DNA from: an uncultured Candidatus Saccharibacteria bacterium
GTDB taxonomy: Bacteria > Patescibacteriota > Saccharimonadia > Saccharimonadales > Saccharimonadaceae
Reading direction: 5' to 3'
Assembly: GCA_949480205.1 (NCBI GenBank)
Contig: CASXXK010000006.1
Coordinates: 1 to 41,066 of the forward strand
DNA length: 41,066 nt
The notes under the pieces: generated by a model
Database searches by the model: none
What the model was told of the DNA's origin: nothing
The model's input: the letters and a program-made list of their open reading frames with translations, nothing else
Translations under genes and position numbers: made by a program
Shown: positions 9,531 through 16,530 of the stretch, in pieces
Numbering within the stretch: the stretch's first letter is position 1
Layout of the letters: every line of letters starts with the position of its first letter

Positions 9531-10130
9531 TTATTGAACGTCTTGTATGTCGGATAGCCTCGTGCCCCTATAGCACCAGTACTGCGCTCCCCGATAAGCG
9601 CCAGATTTATTAGCTTTACCGATTTCTTCCATAATTTTTCTTGTTAAAGGTGTAAGCTTATAGATATACCCTAAATACTCCACTTCACGTTCGCCAACAA
9701 CTTTAGCTATAATTGTTTTATCACAAGATAAATTAATTTTATCACCATTTTTTAAACCCTTGCGATAAAAACTGAATAATTTGCTATCGGTACGCGCTCT
9801 ACTAATGGAGTTGAATTGTTGCTCTCTATCCACATTCTCTGGAAAAATAATAATACATTCAAAAGCAGATAATAGCTGCTTTACTAAATCTAACGCAAAA
9901 AGTTCGCTATCCGCTACACGATGCTTAGAAAAAACTTCATGAACTAACTTTTCTTTATCATCATATTCGTCTACTTCAATAGCGAATGCACGTTTTAAAC
10001 CAACAACATTATAGTACCCATTACTTTCTAAAAAGCGCATTCTTTCTTGATACTGCTTAGGCTGAGTTTTTCCTATCTTAATAAGGCCAGAAACAGCGGT
10101 TGTCATTACATAAATTATGCCCCTAGCCAT
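9531..10130 (-). CDS. T5orf172/GIY-YIG nuclease with DUF4357 C-terminus
   Basis: A 199-residue protein. The N-terminal part (about 1-95) fits the GIY-YIG superfamily T5orf172 type: GIIYVMTT, GLIKIGKTQ, an Arg-containing helix ERMRFL, and the E of ADSELFAL. The C-terminal part (about 130-195) matches DUF4357 (KLTPLTRKIMEEIGK and GAQYWCYRGTRLSDI), a domain often attached to restriction or methylase-associated proteins. It starts on the base after the end of the DUF262-HNH gene, so it is co-translated with it. It probably provides nuclease activity in the restriction cluster. Confidence 0.75.
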   Translation of the reverse strand: MARGIIYVMTTAVSGLIKIGKTQPKQYQERMRFLESNGYYNVVGLKRAFAIEVDEYDDKEKLVHEVFSKHRVADSELFALDLVKQLLSAFECIIIFPENVDREQQFNSISRARTDSKLFSFYRKGLKNGDKINLSCDKTIIAKVVGEREVEYLGYIYKLTPLTRKIMEEIGKANKSGAYRGAQYWCYRGTRLSDIQDVQ

Positions 10131-11294
10131 TTATCTATTGCCTTTCGCGCGATTATGGGTTTTACAAAGCATCTGGCAATTATCCTCACTCGTGCCGCCC
10201 CCTTTGCTCCATGCAGTTACGTGATCGGCATCCATCTCACTTAGGCTATAGATTTTAGCTCTCGTAGCTTCATGACCTAATGCACAAAGTGGGCAGTTGG
10301 ATTCTCCTTTGTCCTGCGCCTTTATGGTCTGATCAGTGTAAACCTTACGTTTGGTTGCTTCGTCGAAGATTCGAACATCTAATAAACTTGGATTTTGGCA
10401 GCCGTCTAGTACATACTCAAAAATACCTTTGCGATTTTTGATATATGGATCGGAGTACAATTCTTCAATCTGTCCAGATAGTTCGCTAGGATCGTAGGGG
10501 TTATGATGATATTTTCTGTACAGTCCATCCCAATCTAAGCCCCTCATTTCGCTTTTTACATCCGGGAAAGTTGTTGCCGCCCAATCTATCACGGTATTAA
10601 AATAAGTTTTCAATTCGTTAATATCGTCATCATACCTATGCTTACTCATATAACCATCAATGTTGTCATTAGAGACCCAGTCAAGTGCTGTCCTTAAGAA
10701 ATCTTGACGGTTTACCGCTCCGGAAATATATGCGCTCCATTTTTGAATATTAGAGTTTCGCGAGTTAGAAAACTCAGCCTTGGCCACAGTTACGAATGGC
10801 CCAGAATAAGTAGCGTTATTGAGCTCCTGTTCATTTAGGGGGATACCGGCAATATTGATAGTTTTGAACCAGTTCTTAATTTCACTTTCTTCGCCTTCGC
10901 AAATGTAGATCGTAAGTGGAGTATTTAGGATTTTGTTCTGCAGATCTTGAGCTAGACCGGAAAAATATTGTTCCATACCATGCTGATCTTTTATTGCAAA
11001 TTTGTTAGTTACAAAACGCCCAAAGCTAGTAACACGTTGTTGGCCATCAAGCACTTCGTATTTACCGTCTCCGACTTTATTAAAATAAATCAGTCCGAGT
11101 GGGTATCCGTTAAGAATTGATTCAACCACGGCAACATCCTTTTTACCGTCCGCATAAATATAATTGCGTTGGTATTCGGGTTGGATTACTAATTTACCAC
11201 CCATGCCGAAAAGGCCTTTACCTTCCAATTCATTATAAATAAAACCTTCGCATAAATCTTTGACAGTTAAATCTGTACGTAAAGTCGTGATCAT
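10131..11294 (-). CDS. DUF262-HNH endonuclease
   Basis: A 387-residue protein with an N-terminal DUF262 (ParB/Srx-like, GmrS-related) domain: [36 protein letters not shown] helical middle follows, then a C-terminal HNH nuclease with [22 protein letters not shown] and KTHN, with the Cys pairs binding zinc. DUF262-HNH proteins are nucleotide-dependent restriction enzymes in several defence systems. Its ATG follows immediately after the TAG of the longest reading frame of the upstream methyltransferase locus, and GIY-YIG follows without gap. It may cut DNA lacking, or carrying, the methylation made by the neighbouring methylase. Confidence 0.82.
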
Positions 11295-11528
11295 CTAATT
11301 ATTCTCTTTAAATTTAATAAAAATGCGCTTATAAATTTTCTTGCCAGCAATAAGAGGCTGTGCAACCATGCTATCAATATTCCATATACCGTTAGAAAAG
11401 CCTTTTCCTTCGCTTTCCGTTGCGCCAACAATCTCGAATTGCTCGGGACAAAATTTATCTAAAAATGAAATTGGTACACCCATAACACCATTATTCCTTA
11501 AACCTAATAAGAATTCGTTTGTAGACAT
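11295..11528 (-). CDS. Alternative methyltransferase C-terminal module C
   Basis: A 77-codon module carrying GVMGVPISFLDKFCPEQFEI and ending KKIYKRIFIKFKENN, the C-terminal signature of EcoRI-family adenine methyltransferases but without catalytic domain. ATG 11528 has its own SD GGAGGTAAAA, so it could be made alone. The frame is also open upstream all the way to the (GA)8 tract, so loss of one GA unit in the methyltransferase would append it, giving a 488-residue protein. Its TAG abuts the ATG of the DUF262-HNH gene. Confidence 0.6.
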   Translation of the reverse strand: MSTNEFLLGLRNNGVMGVPISFLDKFCPEQFEIVGATESEGKGFSNGIWNIDSMVAQPLIAGKKIYKRIFIKFKENN

Positions 11529-11661
11529 TTTTACCTCCGATTGAGACTGACATATTGATACCTTTTGCCCACCCGTTTGGTCTTCCGTAATCATATGAAC
11601 AGCCGATGATTTCGAACTGTTCCGGACAGAATTTGTCGAGGAATGAGATTGGGACTCCCAT
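11491..11661 (-). pseudogene. Alternative methyltransferase C-terminal module B
   Basis: A second 56-codon copy of the same module (MGVPISFLDKFCPEQFEI to YKRILIRFKE) in a different frame, overlapping the start of module C. Gain of one GA unit in the upstream tract would join it to the methyltransferase (424 residues), with no stop in between. It resembles modules A and C at protein level but its codons differ, so it is an old or independently acquired duplication. No independent start signal seen. Confidence 0.6.
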
Positions 11662-11668
11662 GATACCA

Positions 11669-12763
11669 TTACATCTTGCTCCTGATGACGATTCTGAAGT
11701 ACGGCGTAATTCTGCGCAAGCGCCTCTCTCTCTCTCTCTCGGTGCCGCTATTATCGCTCATTGTATAAGTTAGGTCCTTGCCGTCATCACCTTTACGAAA
11801 CTTTTCAATCTCAAATTGTTCCGGACAATACTTGTCGAGAAAGCTAATCGGCACGCCCATCCCGGCTTTATAATCACTCGGAATCGCATCGGTATACGAG
11901 ACTTCTATTGCATCGTAATTATCATATTTCGGGTATCCGCGCTCACGTATTTCTTTGTGTTTACTATACTTAAGATTGTCCGCCATAGTCATGAGTGAAA
12001 GTGGCTGATGGCGACGCCCATGATCGAGATTAGTGAACCATATTACTCCACTTACCCGAATCATGCCTTCCTGATGGTCGGATGCGGTGGCATAATCTTG
12101 ATAATACTTGTTTATAAAATGGGTTGCTCCACCTTTAAAGCCAGTGCCAAGCCACAATTTATTGTACTTTATTAGAGGGAATACCTCTTTGTAAGTTATG
12201 GCATTTTGATGAGCTATAGTTATGATTCTGCGTTGATTACCATCTAGAGCCCAGGCTAGAAACTCACGAAACAATGAAAATGGCGGATTAGTGATAATTA
12301 TATCCGCTTCATCACGCAACTCACAAACTTCCTCACTTCGAAAATCGCCATCACCATCAAGGTAATCCCACTTCAGATCATTGATATCTATCTTTTTATC
12401 CCGATTCCTATCATTTTCCAGCACAAAGATCTTGCCGCGCGATCTAGTTTTATTCCTATCAAACTTCGGATCGCTCATTTCAAATAAAGTCGGTTGATAA
12501 GCAATTTCTGACGGTTTACTATCGGCGGCGTAACTCGTACTAATTAGCTTCTTCAACCCAAAAGTTTCAAAATTTTGCGCAAAATACTTGGTAAAATTAC
12601 TCCATTCTGGGTCATCACAAGGTAAAAGAATTGTTTTACCGCGAAAAACATCTGGATTGTACTCCAAATATGCGTTCATTTCACGTTCAATATCAGCGTA
12701 TTGAGTATAAAACTCATCGTTTTTGGCTCGTTTTGCTTGATGCAGGGAATCGTTCTTTGCCAT
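11669..12763 (-). CDS. EcoRI-family adenine-specific DNA methyltransferase, GA-repeat switch
   Basis: A 364-residue protein of the EcoRI methylase family, transferring methyl from SAM to adenine N6. It shows NDEFYTQYADIEREM at the start, catalytic motif IV ITNPPFSLF (Asn159-Phe162), IAHQNAI, WLGTGFKGG, WFTNLDHGRR, and the C-terminal block GVPISFLDKYCPEQFEI ending in YFRIVIRSK. The ATG at 12763 is six bases after TATAAT, so a leaderless mRNA is expected. Near the end a (GA)8 tract encodes ERERER. In the present frame the protein has module A as C-terminus; other repeat counts fuse it to modules B or C. It probably protects host DNA from the adjacent DUF262-HNH and GIY-YIG nucleases. Confidence 0.85.
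   Translation of the reverse strand: MAKNDSLHQAKRAKNDEFYTQYADIEREMNAYLEYNPDVFRGKTILLPCDDPEWSNFTKYFAQNFETFGLKKLISTSYAADSKPSEIAYQPTLFEMSDPKFDRNKTRSRGKIFVLENDRNRDKKIDINDLKWDYLDGDGDFRSEEVCELRDEADIIITNPPFSLFREFLAWALDGNQRRIITIAHQNAITYKEVFPLIKYNKLWLGTGFKGGATHFINKYYQDYATASDHQEGMIRVSGVIWFTNLDHGRRHQPLSLMTMADNLKYSKHKEIRERGYPKYDNYDAIEVSYTDAIPSDYKAGMGVPISFLDKYCPEQFEIEKFRKGDDGKDLTYTMSDNSGTERERERRLRRITPYFRIVIRSKM
11724..11740 (-). repeat. (GA)8 simple sequence repeat in methyltransferase
   Basis: A 17-base alternating GA run on the coding strand near the 3' end of the methyltransferase. Dinucleotide runs of this length are typical slipped-strand phase-variation sites. All three downstream frames are open into plausible C-termini. 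Confidence 0.85.
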
Positions 12764-12848: not shown

Positions 12849-13793
12849 CTACTTACTCCTACGATTTACCTCAATACTTATAATGCTTTTATCAAAATTC
12901 ATCATGATATGTTCCATCAGAACATCCAGGCTTTTTTCATTCAACCCTTCATATGTCTTTGGACTATAATAGTCGCCAAGTAATAATGAAAGCTCAGTTC
13001 TGGTTGCAATTGTATCGCCGAGGTACTTCTTTTCAAATTCTCTTAGTTTCTTCATGTAGTTGGAAGAAATACTAGTTACAAATAGACACTCATCTTGTTT
13101 TTGCTCCCTAAAAGTGATATTTAGATTTTTCTCACACTGCCTTGCAACATCCTGAAAATCTATAGGTTCATTATCCAATTTACCGTTATATTGTAAAACA
13201 ATTGAAAACAAAGCTTCTTCAATGTCATGCAGCGATTTGTTAAAGACTTCTGATGAAAAAATGTTTGTATTATATGAAAAGTCAAACGGAACTTCTGTGC
13301 CATAAACATTATTTTGAATCGGCGTAATTCTATCATCATAAATTACATTGAGAATATAAAAAGCACCCAGCGCTAAAAGCATAGTACGTATATTCGCTTT
13401 GCGCGCATTTTTCAGACGATCATGCTTTAGCTCACAATATACTGAATAAAAGTCATTTTCATCTTTAGCATTGTAATCGAATGGCATAATTTCACGCAAT
13501 ATTTTACAAAAACAGAAATTTTCATTGCGGACATAAAGCATTTTATTTGTTAGACCAAAATAGCCTACAACCTTAGATGCAGTTTTGCCTATGGTCGTCT
13601 CGGTCTTACTAAATTCAGCCCTACAGATATCTTTGTAAAGTGATTCGATATTAATACAAATTCTGACTATAAGATCTAAAATTTTGTTCGAATACGCCCC
13701 AGCCTGGCAATCGTCAAAAGTTATGCTATATGACAAATCAATAATTTCTTGTTCAATAATTTTATATGTAGACCAATATACACTACCTCGCAT
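12849..13793 (-). CDS. HEPN-like protein, unknown function
   Basis: A 314-residue soluble, helix-rich protein with SD AGGAGG before tandem ATGs; the second ATG has the better spacing. The motif YCELKHDRLKNARKANIRTML with a following hydrophobic helix resembles HEPN or abortive-infection-type helical proteins, where a conserved Lys-His-x-Arg sits after a helix. The assignment is tentative. It lies upstream of the methyltransferase cluster on the same strand, consistent with a defence role. Confidence 0.45.
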   Translation of the reverse strand: MRGSVYWSTYKIIEQEIIDLSYSITFDDCQAGAYSNKILDLIVRICINIESLYKDICRAEFSKTETTIGKTASKVVGYFGLTNKMLYVRNENFCFCKILREIMPFDYNAKDENDFYSVYCELKHDRLKNARKANIRTMLLALGAFYILNVIYDDRITPIQNNVYGTEVPFDFSYNTNIFSSEVFNKSLHDIEEALFSIVLQYNGKLDNEPIDFQDVARQCEKNLNITFREQKQDECLFVTSISSNYMKKLREFEKKYLGDTIATRTELSLLLGDYYSPKTYEGLNEKSLDVLMEHIMMNFDKSIISIEVNRRSK

Positions 13794-13868
13794 CATTTAC
13801 CTCCTATTTTATATTATGATATTATCATTGCCGTCACATATTCCAAAGCACAAGTTACATAATTAATA

Positions 13869-13880: not shown

Positions 13881-15101
13881 ATGCCCAATCACACAGATTA
13901 CCATACCAAAATCGGTCTCAGCAACAGCAACGACAAAAGTTTTTTGCTTTCGAATCGCAGTGTCGTGCTGAACTGGCCATACAAAGATTGCGTGTTGGAG
14001 GGTAAACAAACTAAAGAAACCGCCAAAGGTGATGAAAATTTCCTGCACATTGTGGATGATGCGACAGAAATTAGTGAACTACTAGAACCAAAAGATTTTA
14101 CAAATCTGAGATTACATAAAATTAGTACAAAAATCGCTCCGGAAGTCAAAAATAATACCGTCAAAAAGTCACAAATTGCAGCTGACGCCACAACTACAAT
14201 TGAGAATTTTACCGATCAAGATAATCTTATCATCAAAGGCAACAATCTCATTGCGCTTCATTCCCTGCGACCGCGCTTTGCGGGCGAAATCAAACTGATT
14301 TATATCGACGTACCATTCAATACGGGTGATGATAGCTTTTGTTATAACGATACTTTTACCCACTCCACGTGGCTCACTTTTATGAAAAATCGCCTAGAAG
14401 TAGCGAAAGATTTGCTCACCACTGACGGCTCGATTTTTATCCACGCTGACTGGCATGAAGTGCACTATCTCAAAGTTCTCTGCGACGAAATTCTAGGCCG
14501 CGATAATTTTATCAACGAAATTATTTGGTGCTACACTGGCCCAGGTAGCCCGCAGATGCAACAGCTCAACCGCAAACACGACACCATTCTTTGGTACGCT
14601 AAAGACCCAGATAATTTTACTTTTAACAAAGACACTGTACGCGTGCCTTACACCAGCACTTATCAATCCCTGCGCAAAAGTCTGAATGCTGGCGATGGTT
14701 GGACGGACGAAGATGTAGCGCGGATGCGCGAAAAAGGTCGTGTACCGGATGATTGGTGGAGCGATATTGCCGTAGCAGCGCGCGTGCCAGTCGATGACAA
14801 AAAACGCACGGGCTATATGACCGAAAAACCAATTAAGCTGATGGAACGCATCATCAAAATGGCGTCAAATTCAGGTGACATCGTGTTGGATTTTTTTGCT
14901 GGCAGTGGTACTACGCCATACGTAGCGGCGCAGCTTGGCCGGCAGTTCATTGCCGTGGAGCAATTGAACGGTGCGCACCGCCTGATGTTGCAACGTCTGG
15001 AAGGCGAAGCGGATTTTATCAGTTGCGAAATTGCAGACCCTGCGGATGTAGAAGCAAATTCTGATCACGAAAGTTTAACCCCAGAATCACATGTCGCCTG
15101 A
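13881..15101 (+). CDS. Type III Mod-like DNA methyltransferase, altered motif IV
   Basis: A 406-residue beta-class adenine methyltransferase of the type III Mod group. N-terminal NWPYKDCVLEGKQTKE and LIIKGNNLIALHSL match Mod; motif I is VLDFFAGSGTT in the C-terminal part. Motif IV, normally DPPY, reads DVPF (Asp143-Val144-Pro145-Phe146; codons GAC GTA CCA TTC), a change that may reduce or abolish methylation. The target-recognition region is short, since typical Mod proteins are 550-650 residues. It overlaps the downstream res gene by 11 bases. The pair may be a decaying R-M system or a divergent variant. Confidence 0.8.
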   Translation: MPNHTDYHTKIGLSNSNDKSFLLSNRSVVLNWPYKDCVLEGKQTKETAKGDENFLHIVDDATEISELLEPKDFTNLRLHKISTKIAPEVKNNTVKKSQIAADATTTIENFTDQDNLIIKGNNLIALHSLRPRFAGEIKLIYIDVPFNTGDDSFCYNDTFTHSTWLTFMKNRLEVAKDLLTTDGSIFIHADWHEVHYLKVLCDEILGRDNFINEIIWCYTGPGSPQMQQLNRKHDTILWYAKDPDNFTFNKDTVRVPYTSTYQSLRKSLNAGDGWTDEDVARMREKGRVPDDWWSDIAVAARVPVDDKKRTGYMTEKPIKLMERIIKMASNSGDIVLDFFAGSGTTPYVAAQLGRQFIAVEQLNGAHRLMLQRLEGEADFISCEIADPADVEANSDHESLTPESHVA

Positions 15102-16530
15102 AATTAACCACAATCTGCGCTATGCACCACGCGCATATCAAGTCGCGGCGTTAGAACGTTGGCAAAAATACATGGACAGTGCACCAAAATTGCCCGTGCA
15201 ACTTTTGTTCAATATGGCTACGGGTTCAGGCAAAACTTATATTATGGCAGCGCTGATGCTGGATTTATATGCGCGCGGTTGGCGCAACTTTCTTTTTTTC
15301 GTAAACTCCGCCAATATTTTGGAAAAGACGCGTGATAATTTCGTACGACTAAACTCGCCAAAATATTTATTTGTACCAAATACTAAAATTGACGGCAGGA
15401 ATATTCGCGTACGAGAAATTCGCAGCTTTTATGAAAGTGATCCGAACGCAATCAACATTTATTTTACTACCACTCAGCGCCTACATACCGATTTAAATAT
15501 TCCACATGAGAATCGAATCTCTTACGCCGAACTCGCACAGTATAATATTGTCTTGATCGGTGATGAGGCTCATCATAATAATGCCAAGAATAACCTTTAC
15601 CGTCCGACGACGTTTGGAAATTGGGAAGATACCGTGGCGCGAATTCTGCAACAAAATCCGCAAAGCATGTTACTGGAATTTACGGCTACGATGGATTTTG
15701 CAGATATAACGATTCAGAAAAAATACCGCGAGCGCACAATTTTCCAATACGATTTGCGGAAGTTTTGCCAAGACGGATTTAGTAAAGAAGTATTATTATA
15801 TAGTGCAACAGACAACTTGCTGGAACGCGAGTTGCAGGCCATAGTCCTTAGCCAATATCGTAAATATGTAGCACAAAAGTACAATATTCCCTGCAAGCCG
15901 GTGGTAATGTTCAAAAGTCGTACCGTGTATGAAAACAAAAATAATTTGTCATATTTTGAACTCTTGTTGTTACATTTAACGCCAGAAAGATTGGCAAAAA
16001 TACGCGACAATGCGACTGGAATTTTACAAAAAGCCTTCCAATTCTTTGAGCAAAACAAAATTAGTCTTGAGCAACTTTGCCAGGAACTTCAGCAAGATTT
16101 TGCGCCAGCTAACCTCTTGCGTATGGATGGTGGCCAACAAGTTTCTAAACAAATGCAACATGCTGTGAATACTTTGGAAGCACCAGAAAATCATTATCGA
16201 GCAATTTTTGCCGTGGATATGCTCAAGGAAGGTTGGGATGTTTTGAATCTGTTTGACATTGTGCGACTTTATGAAACCCGTGACGGCAAAACTAAAAATG
16301 GAATTTACATTCCAGGCAAAACCACAATTTCTGAAGCGCAATTGATTGGCCGTGGCGCGCGCTATTTCCCCTTTGCTACGAGCCATCAGAAAGATAAATA
16401 TCGGCGCAAATTTGATGACGAGCTAGAAAACGAATTACGCATTTTGGAACAACTGCATTATCATACTAGCCGCGACGTGCAGTATATTCATGAAATTCAG
16501 CAAGCTTTGGACAAAATTGGGCTAAACTAA
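15091..16530 (+). CDS. Type III Res-like helicase, lacking nuclease domain
   Basis: A 479-residue SF2 helicase of the type III restriction subunit group. Walker A is FNMATGSGKT, motif II is DEAH (IGDEAHHNN), motif III-like is FTATMD, and motif VI-like is QLIGRGARYFP. It ends soon after motif VI, where full Res subunits (around 900 residues or more) continue into a PD-(D/E)XK endonuclease, so the cutting domain is missing. It overlaps mod by 11 bases. Its 3' end overlaps the convergent ABC-F gene by 9 bases, which suggests the truncation happened at this junction. Confidence 0.8.
   Translation: MSPEINHNLRYAPRAYQVAALERWQKYMDSAPKLPVQLLFNMATGSGKTYIMAALMLDLYARGWRNFLFFVNSANILEKTRDNFVRLNSPKYLFVPNTKIDGRNIRVREIRSFYESDPNAINIYFTTTQRLHTDLNIPHENRISYAELAQYNIVLIGDEAHHNNAKNNLYRPTTFGNWEDTVARILQQNPQSMLLEFTATMDFADITIQKKYRERTIFQYDLRKFCQDGFSKEVLLYSATDNLLERELQAIVLSQYRKYVAQKYNIPCKPVVMFKSRTVYENKNNLSYFELLLLHLTPERLAKIRDNATGILQKAFQFFEQNKISLEQLCQELQQDFAPANLLRMDGGQQVSKQMQHAVNTLEAPENHYRAIFAVDMLKEGWDVLNLFDIVRLYETRDGKTKNGIYIPGKTTISEAQLIGRGARYFPFATSHQKDKYRRKFDDELENELRILEQLHYHTSRDVQYIHEIQQALDKIGLN

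Follow-up and report, generated by a model that had tools for sequence, protein, structure and literature searches.

The closest described relatives of the locus reported here are found in H. pylori, where a 3' repeat in the Type IIG enzymes JHP1272 and HP1353-HP1354 adds a C-terminal domain which resembles part of the upstream TRD (Krebes, PMC3936762). The added domain displaces or substitutes this part of the TRD, and SMRT sequencing revealed the corresponding changes in methylated sequence, from GGWTAA to GGWCNA and from CRTTRA to CRTCNA (PMC3936762). This system has two specificity states and a separate ON/OFF tract, uses homopolymers, and operates on a Type IIG fusion enzyme. A broader class, C-terminal phase variation, has been described in H. 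canadensis (Snyder 2010, PMC2823697) and N. gonorrhoeae (PMC5320596), in which the repeat alters the C-terminus but does not silence the gene; three frames per gene are listed, and fusion of one gene with its neighbour is possible (PMC2823697, PMC5320596). Alternative recognition domains are also exchanged on a constant body in Type I hsdS genes (PMC7394358). R64-type shufflons, likewise, exchange alternative C-termini on one constant body.

We analysed a stretch of 41,066 nucleotides (the window) from an uncultured Saccharibacteria bacterium, which contains a methyltransferase gene of the EcoRI family (PF13651) with a repeat close to its 3' end. JHP1272 / HP1353-54 is the closest experimental precedent for this switch (PMC3936762). 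Nevertheless, the window differs from JHP1272 in having three tails accessible from one tract, no OFF frame, and an EcoRI-family gamma methyltransferase with a separate DUF262-HNH protein; moreover, the switch loci that we found use several repeat units, as opposed to the homopolymers of JHP1272 / HP1353-54. With respect to C-terminal phase variation (PMC2823697, PMC5320596), the tails reported are for the most part short, with 0 to 35 residues and some longer ones, and we found no family-homologous alternative modules described among them, whereas every window frame ends in one. hsdS genes and shufflons depend on recombination between repeats, while in the window all variants can be read from one unrearranged DNA. 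M.EcoRI and its family share both the body and one tail (tail A) with the window enzyme, but genes of the M.EcoRI type carry one tail without interruption (SxNGKCPYFRIL) and are partnered by an EcoRI endonuclease, whereas in the window the corresponding loop holds the repeat and the partner is DUF262-HNH.

We found no description of an equivalent three-tail methyltransferase in the literature searched, nor any paper on phase variation with restriction-modification in Saccharibacteria. A first, sequence-only reading of the locus had stated that no system with this layout was described, which held only in part: the principle is known (PMC2823697, PMC3936762), both as the class of C-terminal phase variation and as the two-state specificity switch of JHP1272/HP1353-54, and what appears new is a three-way selector without an OFF frame, in the EcoRI family, built repeatedly from different repeats.

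The methyltransferase gene, its repeat and its three readings

The gene (11669..12763, minus strand) encodes, in its present state A, an EcoRI-family adenine DNA methyltransferase of 364 aa, for which we have Pfam evidence and an AF2 model. The assignment rests on a full-length PF13651 match (E=5.9e-120, profile positions 2-345 of 345) and on the NPPF catalytic motif, invariant across the family alignment; adenine methylation activity itself is inferred from sequence. The proposed switch is a (GA)8G repeat (11724..11740, minus strand), which encodes TERERER in state A, between the last strands of tail A. No other GA run of at least 14 nt is present in the 855-kb assembly. On the same strand, module A (GVPISFLDKYCPEQFEIEKFRKGDDGKDL...PYFRIVIRSKM; 11672..11857) is an EcoRI-type tail split by the repeat, module B (GCSYDYG... 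type; 11494..11658, stop at 11491-11493) is read with one additional GA unit, and module C (GATESEGKGFSNG... type; 11298..11480, stop at 11295-11297) with one unit fewer.

Translation of the real and edited sequence gave readings of 364, 424 and 488 aa for n, n+1 and n-1 GA units, exactly as the sequence-only reading had claimed when it proposed that the tract selects among three C-termini. Every reading terminates in a module with the block GVPISFLDK(Y/F)CPEQFEI, so that no frame is OFF. The claim that each module carries this block and a family-like end was also upheld, since modules B and C in isolation match PF13651 (E=3.1e-10 and 8.6e-11) at profile positions 277-344 of 345. The locus has the hallmark of the systems described by Snyder, a simple repeat near the coding 3' end with frames leading to different C-termini, as well as that of JHP1272, namely that the added segments B and C are homologous to the C-terminal profile region of the enzyme itself. 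In contrast, the silencing frames of a classical ON/OFF phasevarion are absent, as all three window frames give a complete module. The further claim, that slippage would swap the C-terminus rather than silence the gene, is therefore supported, with slippage within populations remaining an inference.

Each tail starts with a copy of a 53-nt direct repeat (11808-11860, 11609-11661 and 11431-11483), the copies being 74-77% alike. As these are spaced by 199 and 178 nt, neither of which is divisible by 3, each module lies in the next frame. At the switch in the window we saw no long inverted repeats, only a 31-nt inverted pair (74%) within module C. The stop codon of module C adjoins the start of the DUF262-HNH gene (11295-11297 against 11294), as had been proposed, and the stops of B and A lie approximately 197 and 374 nt upstream; altered translational coupling to the nuclease, also proposed, remains an inference from these stop positions.

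The AF2 model of state A has a mean pLDDT of 86.7. Residues 11-247 form a Rossmann domain which aligns with the catalytic domain of M.TaqI, among others (Z about 9), and the tail is predicted to comprise residues 301-362, after this domain. Gamma-class methyltransferases carry their target-recognition region where this tail sits. The repeat is predicted to encode a short helix (342-347) which precedes the last strands, and a frameshift would thus remove the final strand of module A and supply a new end. When the B-state protein was aligned using MAFFT, relatives aligned on the first copy of the scaffold, with the last strand alone aligning on the second. The structure comparison spanned residues 11-247 only, and the lack of a reported match for the tail is no evidence of a new fold; a PDB sequence search with the methyltransferase gave no match at E 0.01. 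The body contains a second hypervariable stretch at residues ~205-240 (window ~12044-12151), with pLDDT below 50 at 216-231 in the AF2 model, which could possibly constitute another part of target recognition.

Occupied states, purifying selection and recurrence of the proposed switch

A homologous methyltransferase is encoded in 22 of 174 genomes of the window's genus. In addition to the window, three of these (G499, G546 and G016) combine the three-module layout with a GA tract. Locus L121 (from G499) has (GA)9 and an encoded reading that ends in A, L122 (from G546; identical across the compared region to L013 / CAMYWN010000021.1) has (GA)13 and ends in B, and L010 (from G016) has (GA)7 and ends in C, showing that each of the three states is the encoded reading in some genome. 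Complete genes terminating in B (L122) and in C (L010, and L218 from a viral contig) therefore occur. L121 and L122 contain the same modules, four GA units apart, at ~89% DNA identity. Two outcomes had been named in advance as refuting the proposal, a repeat count invariant in population reads and across strains, and frameshifted modules B and C in relatives. As far as a comparison between relatives allows, neither was found: the count varies (7, 8, 9, 13) with states A, B and C occupied, and both modules are intact and under purifying selection. It should be noted that repeat lengths were compared between species only, not within one population or species, and that the window assembly is a draft MAG (28 contigs, 87.6% complete), in which assembly could have merged mixed repeat lengths.

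With each segment in its own frame, the comparison of L121 (state A) with L122 (state B) gave dN/dS values of 0.028 (module B), 0.031 (module C), 0.035 (body) and 0.042 (first half of A). Out of frame, these segments gave values of 1.8 to 3.8, or zero synonymous changes. Every tail is thus under purifying selection between these loci and not in decay. Given that B is out of frame in L121 and C is out of frame in both, every tail must have been in use after the two lineages separated, barring expression by another route. In each of the five three-module loci, frames B and C run uninterrupted onward from the tract, over 17-24 and 73-81 codons, respectively, the C frame passing through module B. 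Upon synonymous redrawing of module B, the C frame stayed open in 0.6% of cases for the window, 3.5-4.4% for L121/L122, 8.8% for L010 and 1.3% for L218. Furthermore, among 162 single-tail homologues the family end motif appeared in only 2 of the 324 readings in shifted frames, as opposed to nearly every frame of the switch loci. Together with the 0.6% of open C frames in the window redraws, this indicates that the three-tail layout did not arise by chance.

Including the window, 14 loci have a repeat at the switch point; in other hosts and phage contigs it is (GA)/(AG)6-20, (CA)21, (GAACA)7 or A9, nearly always with three complete tails, and one Bacteroidales locus has G8. Three full modules are present in L218, which has A9. 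A second design, in which a single scaffold is followed by three different ends 3' of the repeat, was found in Gastranaerophilales (L019, (AG)8), Porphyromonas (L086, (AG)20), the same genus as the window (L128, (GA)6) and viral contigs (L160, (GAACA)7; L244, (CA)21; L159, (AG)10; L158, A9), the third tail being incomplete in L159 and L158. Tails B and C of L019-type loci retain half of tail A plus a long linker, whose folding is inferred. L223 has two modules and one frame that stops at the tract, the only locus in which we saw such a frame, and L056 (Bacteroidales) has G8 between two modules that share one frame. Mapping the 14 switch loci onto a tree of methyltransferase bodies requires 13 changes; well-supported branches force at least 10 of these, although the placement of L218 is unsure owing to its long branch. 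The switch, or a tail cassette containing it, has therefore been gained repeatedly. In the order to which the Porphyromonas locus belongs, a search of 393 genomes for a GA tract with PYF codons recovered that locus alone, so the switch is rare there.

Tail exchange, the EcoRI link and the nuclease partner

In the segment that separates the conserved scaffold from the last strand, homologues show dozens of discrete C-terminal types, which are shared by different phyla; the tails are modular. Most switch modules that we compared resemble the sole C-terminus of a standalone methyltransferase: window C resembles the tail of L040 (30/42 identical) and window B that of L272 (27/37 identical), while L121 B corresponds to L075, L010 B to L026, L010 C to L190, and L218 B and C to L111 and L064. 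Module C of L121 had no clear standalone counterpart among the homologues compared. A given type can occupy different positions, as the GATESEG type is found at position C in the window and at position B in L010. Two Bacteroidales MAGs (L012 and L023) encode DUF262 proteins 100% identical over 360 aa and bodies 88% identical, with unrelated tails, which represents a recent natural tail swap. As DUF262 proteins 95-100% identical lie beside unlike tail types (L012/L023, L121/L125), tails move independently of the nuclease. In six loci (L020, L074, L173, L181, L187 and L220), EcoRI-family methyltransferase genes that are complete, or nearly so, and differ in their tails lie in tandem, an alternative route to hold several specificities.

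The tail A type (KFRKG..PYFRIL) was present in 17 of 17 plasmid records containing an EcoRI endonuclease at least 65% identical to the query, from genera including Leuconostoc, Rhodococcus and Staphylococcus, although near-identical plasmids among these are not independent. Because a sample assembled in the opposite direction was partly picked by tail, the unbiased direction, with the endonuclease as query, was used instead. One sampled Patescibacteria-like genome of the window's phylum (G347, locus L113) has an EcoRI endonuclease, and its methyltransferase has the KFRKG..PYFRIL tail. More distant EcoRI-like endonucleases (Acinetobacter and Paracoccus; n=2) are annotated next to other kinds of methyltransferase. 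Since the tail A type accompanies the EcoRI endonuclease, state A is predicted to methylate GAATTC, and B and C would mark other sequences. The window itself gave no signal of GAATTC avoidance (15 sites observed, 15.5 expected).

The putative cognate restriction enzyme (10131..11294, minus strand; Pfam and PADLOC) is a DUF262 (GmrSD_N) protein with an HNH nuclease domain, matched by the PADLOC REase_II profile across its whole length (E=3.2e-87, 291 bits), with the methyltransferase matching MTase_II (294 bits). The locus thus satisfies the definition of a Type II restriction-modification system as a methyltransferase with an adjacent restriction endonuclease gene. DUF262 lies downstream of the methyltransferase in 94 of 102 genome loci but in only 14 of 36 viral-contig loci. 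The identity between DUF262 proteins is independent of tail type, which makes a shared fixed specificity doubtful, and a fixed, independent nuclease specificity is hard to reconcile with tail exchange. The nuclease may either read its target via the methyltransferase or respond to methylation generally. Because it is nearly unchanged while tails change, DUF262-HNH probably depends on the methyltransferase for its specificity, or for its protection, its behaviour being inferred.

Other genes surround this pair. Directly 3' of the DUF262-HNH gene lies a gene for a T5orf172 (GIY-YIG-like) protein (9531-10130, minus strand) which matches PADLOC PDC-S57. On the plus strand, an N6/N4 methyltransferase of 406 aa (13881-15101) and a ResIII protein of 479 aa (15091-16530) match the PADLOC Type III Mod and Res profiles over positions 167-388 of 708 and 33-506 of 873 only, and this Type III system therefore looks shortened. 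Between it and the EcoRI-family system lies a gene for a 315-aa protein (12849-13796, minus strand) without matches in Pfam, PADLOC or NCBIfam; the NCBIfam search gave no matches.

Proposed mechanism and alternative explanations

We propose that slipped-strand mispairing alters the number of GA units and that, as the unit has 2 nt, the tract length modulo 3 would pick the frame read after the common body (residues 1 to ~345). Tail A would end at once, B would be reached via a short out-of-frame linker and C via a longer one. Each tail, composed of the GVPISFLDK..PEQFEI scaffold, a hypervariable middle and a final Y-x-R-I-x-I strand, would occupy the target-recognition position of gamma-class methyltransferases. 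The upstream copy would be without its last strand in states B and C, where we expect the complete downstream copy to take its place, by analogy with the role suggested for the extra domain of JHP1272 in H. pylori. As a likely outcome, the sequence that is methylated would change in a heritable and reversible manner, and the enzyme would stay active in all states. We therefore favour, with a probability of roughly 0.8, a three-way phase-variable methyltransferase in which slippage chooses among three target-recognition tails. Our confidence is slightly higher for slipped-strand phase variation as the mechanism, even though slippage within populations is inferred, and slightly lower, while still good, for the change in DNA specificity, which is inferred without a methylome. 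The existence of two-way or truncated-frame loci (L223, L158, L159) speaks against the full three-way picture.

An alternative possibility is that tail switching is real but leaves DNA specificity unchanged, the tails tuning activity, stability or contact with DUF262-HNH, or the C state raising translation of the nuclease through the proximity of its stop codon to the nuclease start. Consistent with this, in the window, L121/L122 and L010 the stop codon of C either adjoins the start of DUF262 or overlaps it, and the hypervariable body stretch of low pLDDT could itself carry specificity. We nevertheless consider this unlikely, because diverse tail types swap beside identical DUF262 proteins, which argues against matching to the nuclease, because the KFRKG tail accompanies the EcoRI endonuclease across genera, because the tail is located at the gamma-class TRD position, and because the switch is also present in phage contigs without DUF262 (L159). 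Modules B and C could instead be used without any fusion by slippage, either as separate small proteins or as silent cassettes which recombine into the expressed position. In favour of separate use, an ATG begins each module (MGVPISF), and in L121/L122 the stretch AAGGAGGTGTAACGG(C/T)ATCATG places a strong Shine-Dalgarno-like AAGGAGG ahead of the ATG of module B; in favour of cassettes, the changing position of module types between loci points to recombination over evolution. Nevertheless, the B and C frames open from the tract in every three-module locus, which would be needless with an internal start, whole genes ending in B and in C are known, the junction carries a repeat each time, with differing units, and module copies are only 74-77% alike in DNA. 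This explanation is very improbable overall, but separate translation of module B in L121/L122 remains possible and could not be excluded. The AAGGAGGTGTAACGG(C/T)ATCATG stretch also encodes the end of tail A.

It could also be argued that a single cell makes all three isoforms, through ribosomal or transcriptional slippage on the repeat. A9 tracts, such as those of L158 and L218, are slippery for polymerase and ribosome, which favours this view, but repeats of GA, CA and GAACA do not belong to the canonical slippery sites, and tract lengths and encoded states vary between relatives, so we give it very little weight. A decayed tandem duplication, or a sequencing or assembly error, might be suspected in a draft MAG, but can be practically dismissed, as independent assemblies share the layout, the frames are open and the origin is recurrent; the conserved layout and the dN/dS values rule out artefact and decay.

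Phase-variable methyltransferases are usually treated as ON/OFF, whereas in the slippage-driven selector that we favour each frame gives a different, selected, complete enzyme. Annotation pipelines give only one of its three proteins, and ON/OFF repeat surveys would misclassify such genes. The tails amount to a natural set of exchangeable recognition modules for the EcoRI family, and raise the question of how a nuclease can cope with a partner that abruptly changes specificity, such tolerance being inferred at present. A bolder reading, for and against which we see comparable grounds, is that these loci form a recurrent class of three-way specificity selectors without an OFF frame, assembled many times from different repeat units in Saccharibacteria, Bacteroidota, Gastranaerophilales and phages, in which the nuclease follows the current specificity of the methyltransferase. 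If this were true, a single repeat tract in a host with a very small genome would allow one slippage event to swap the whole restriction-modification identity of the cell without self-damage.
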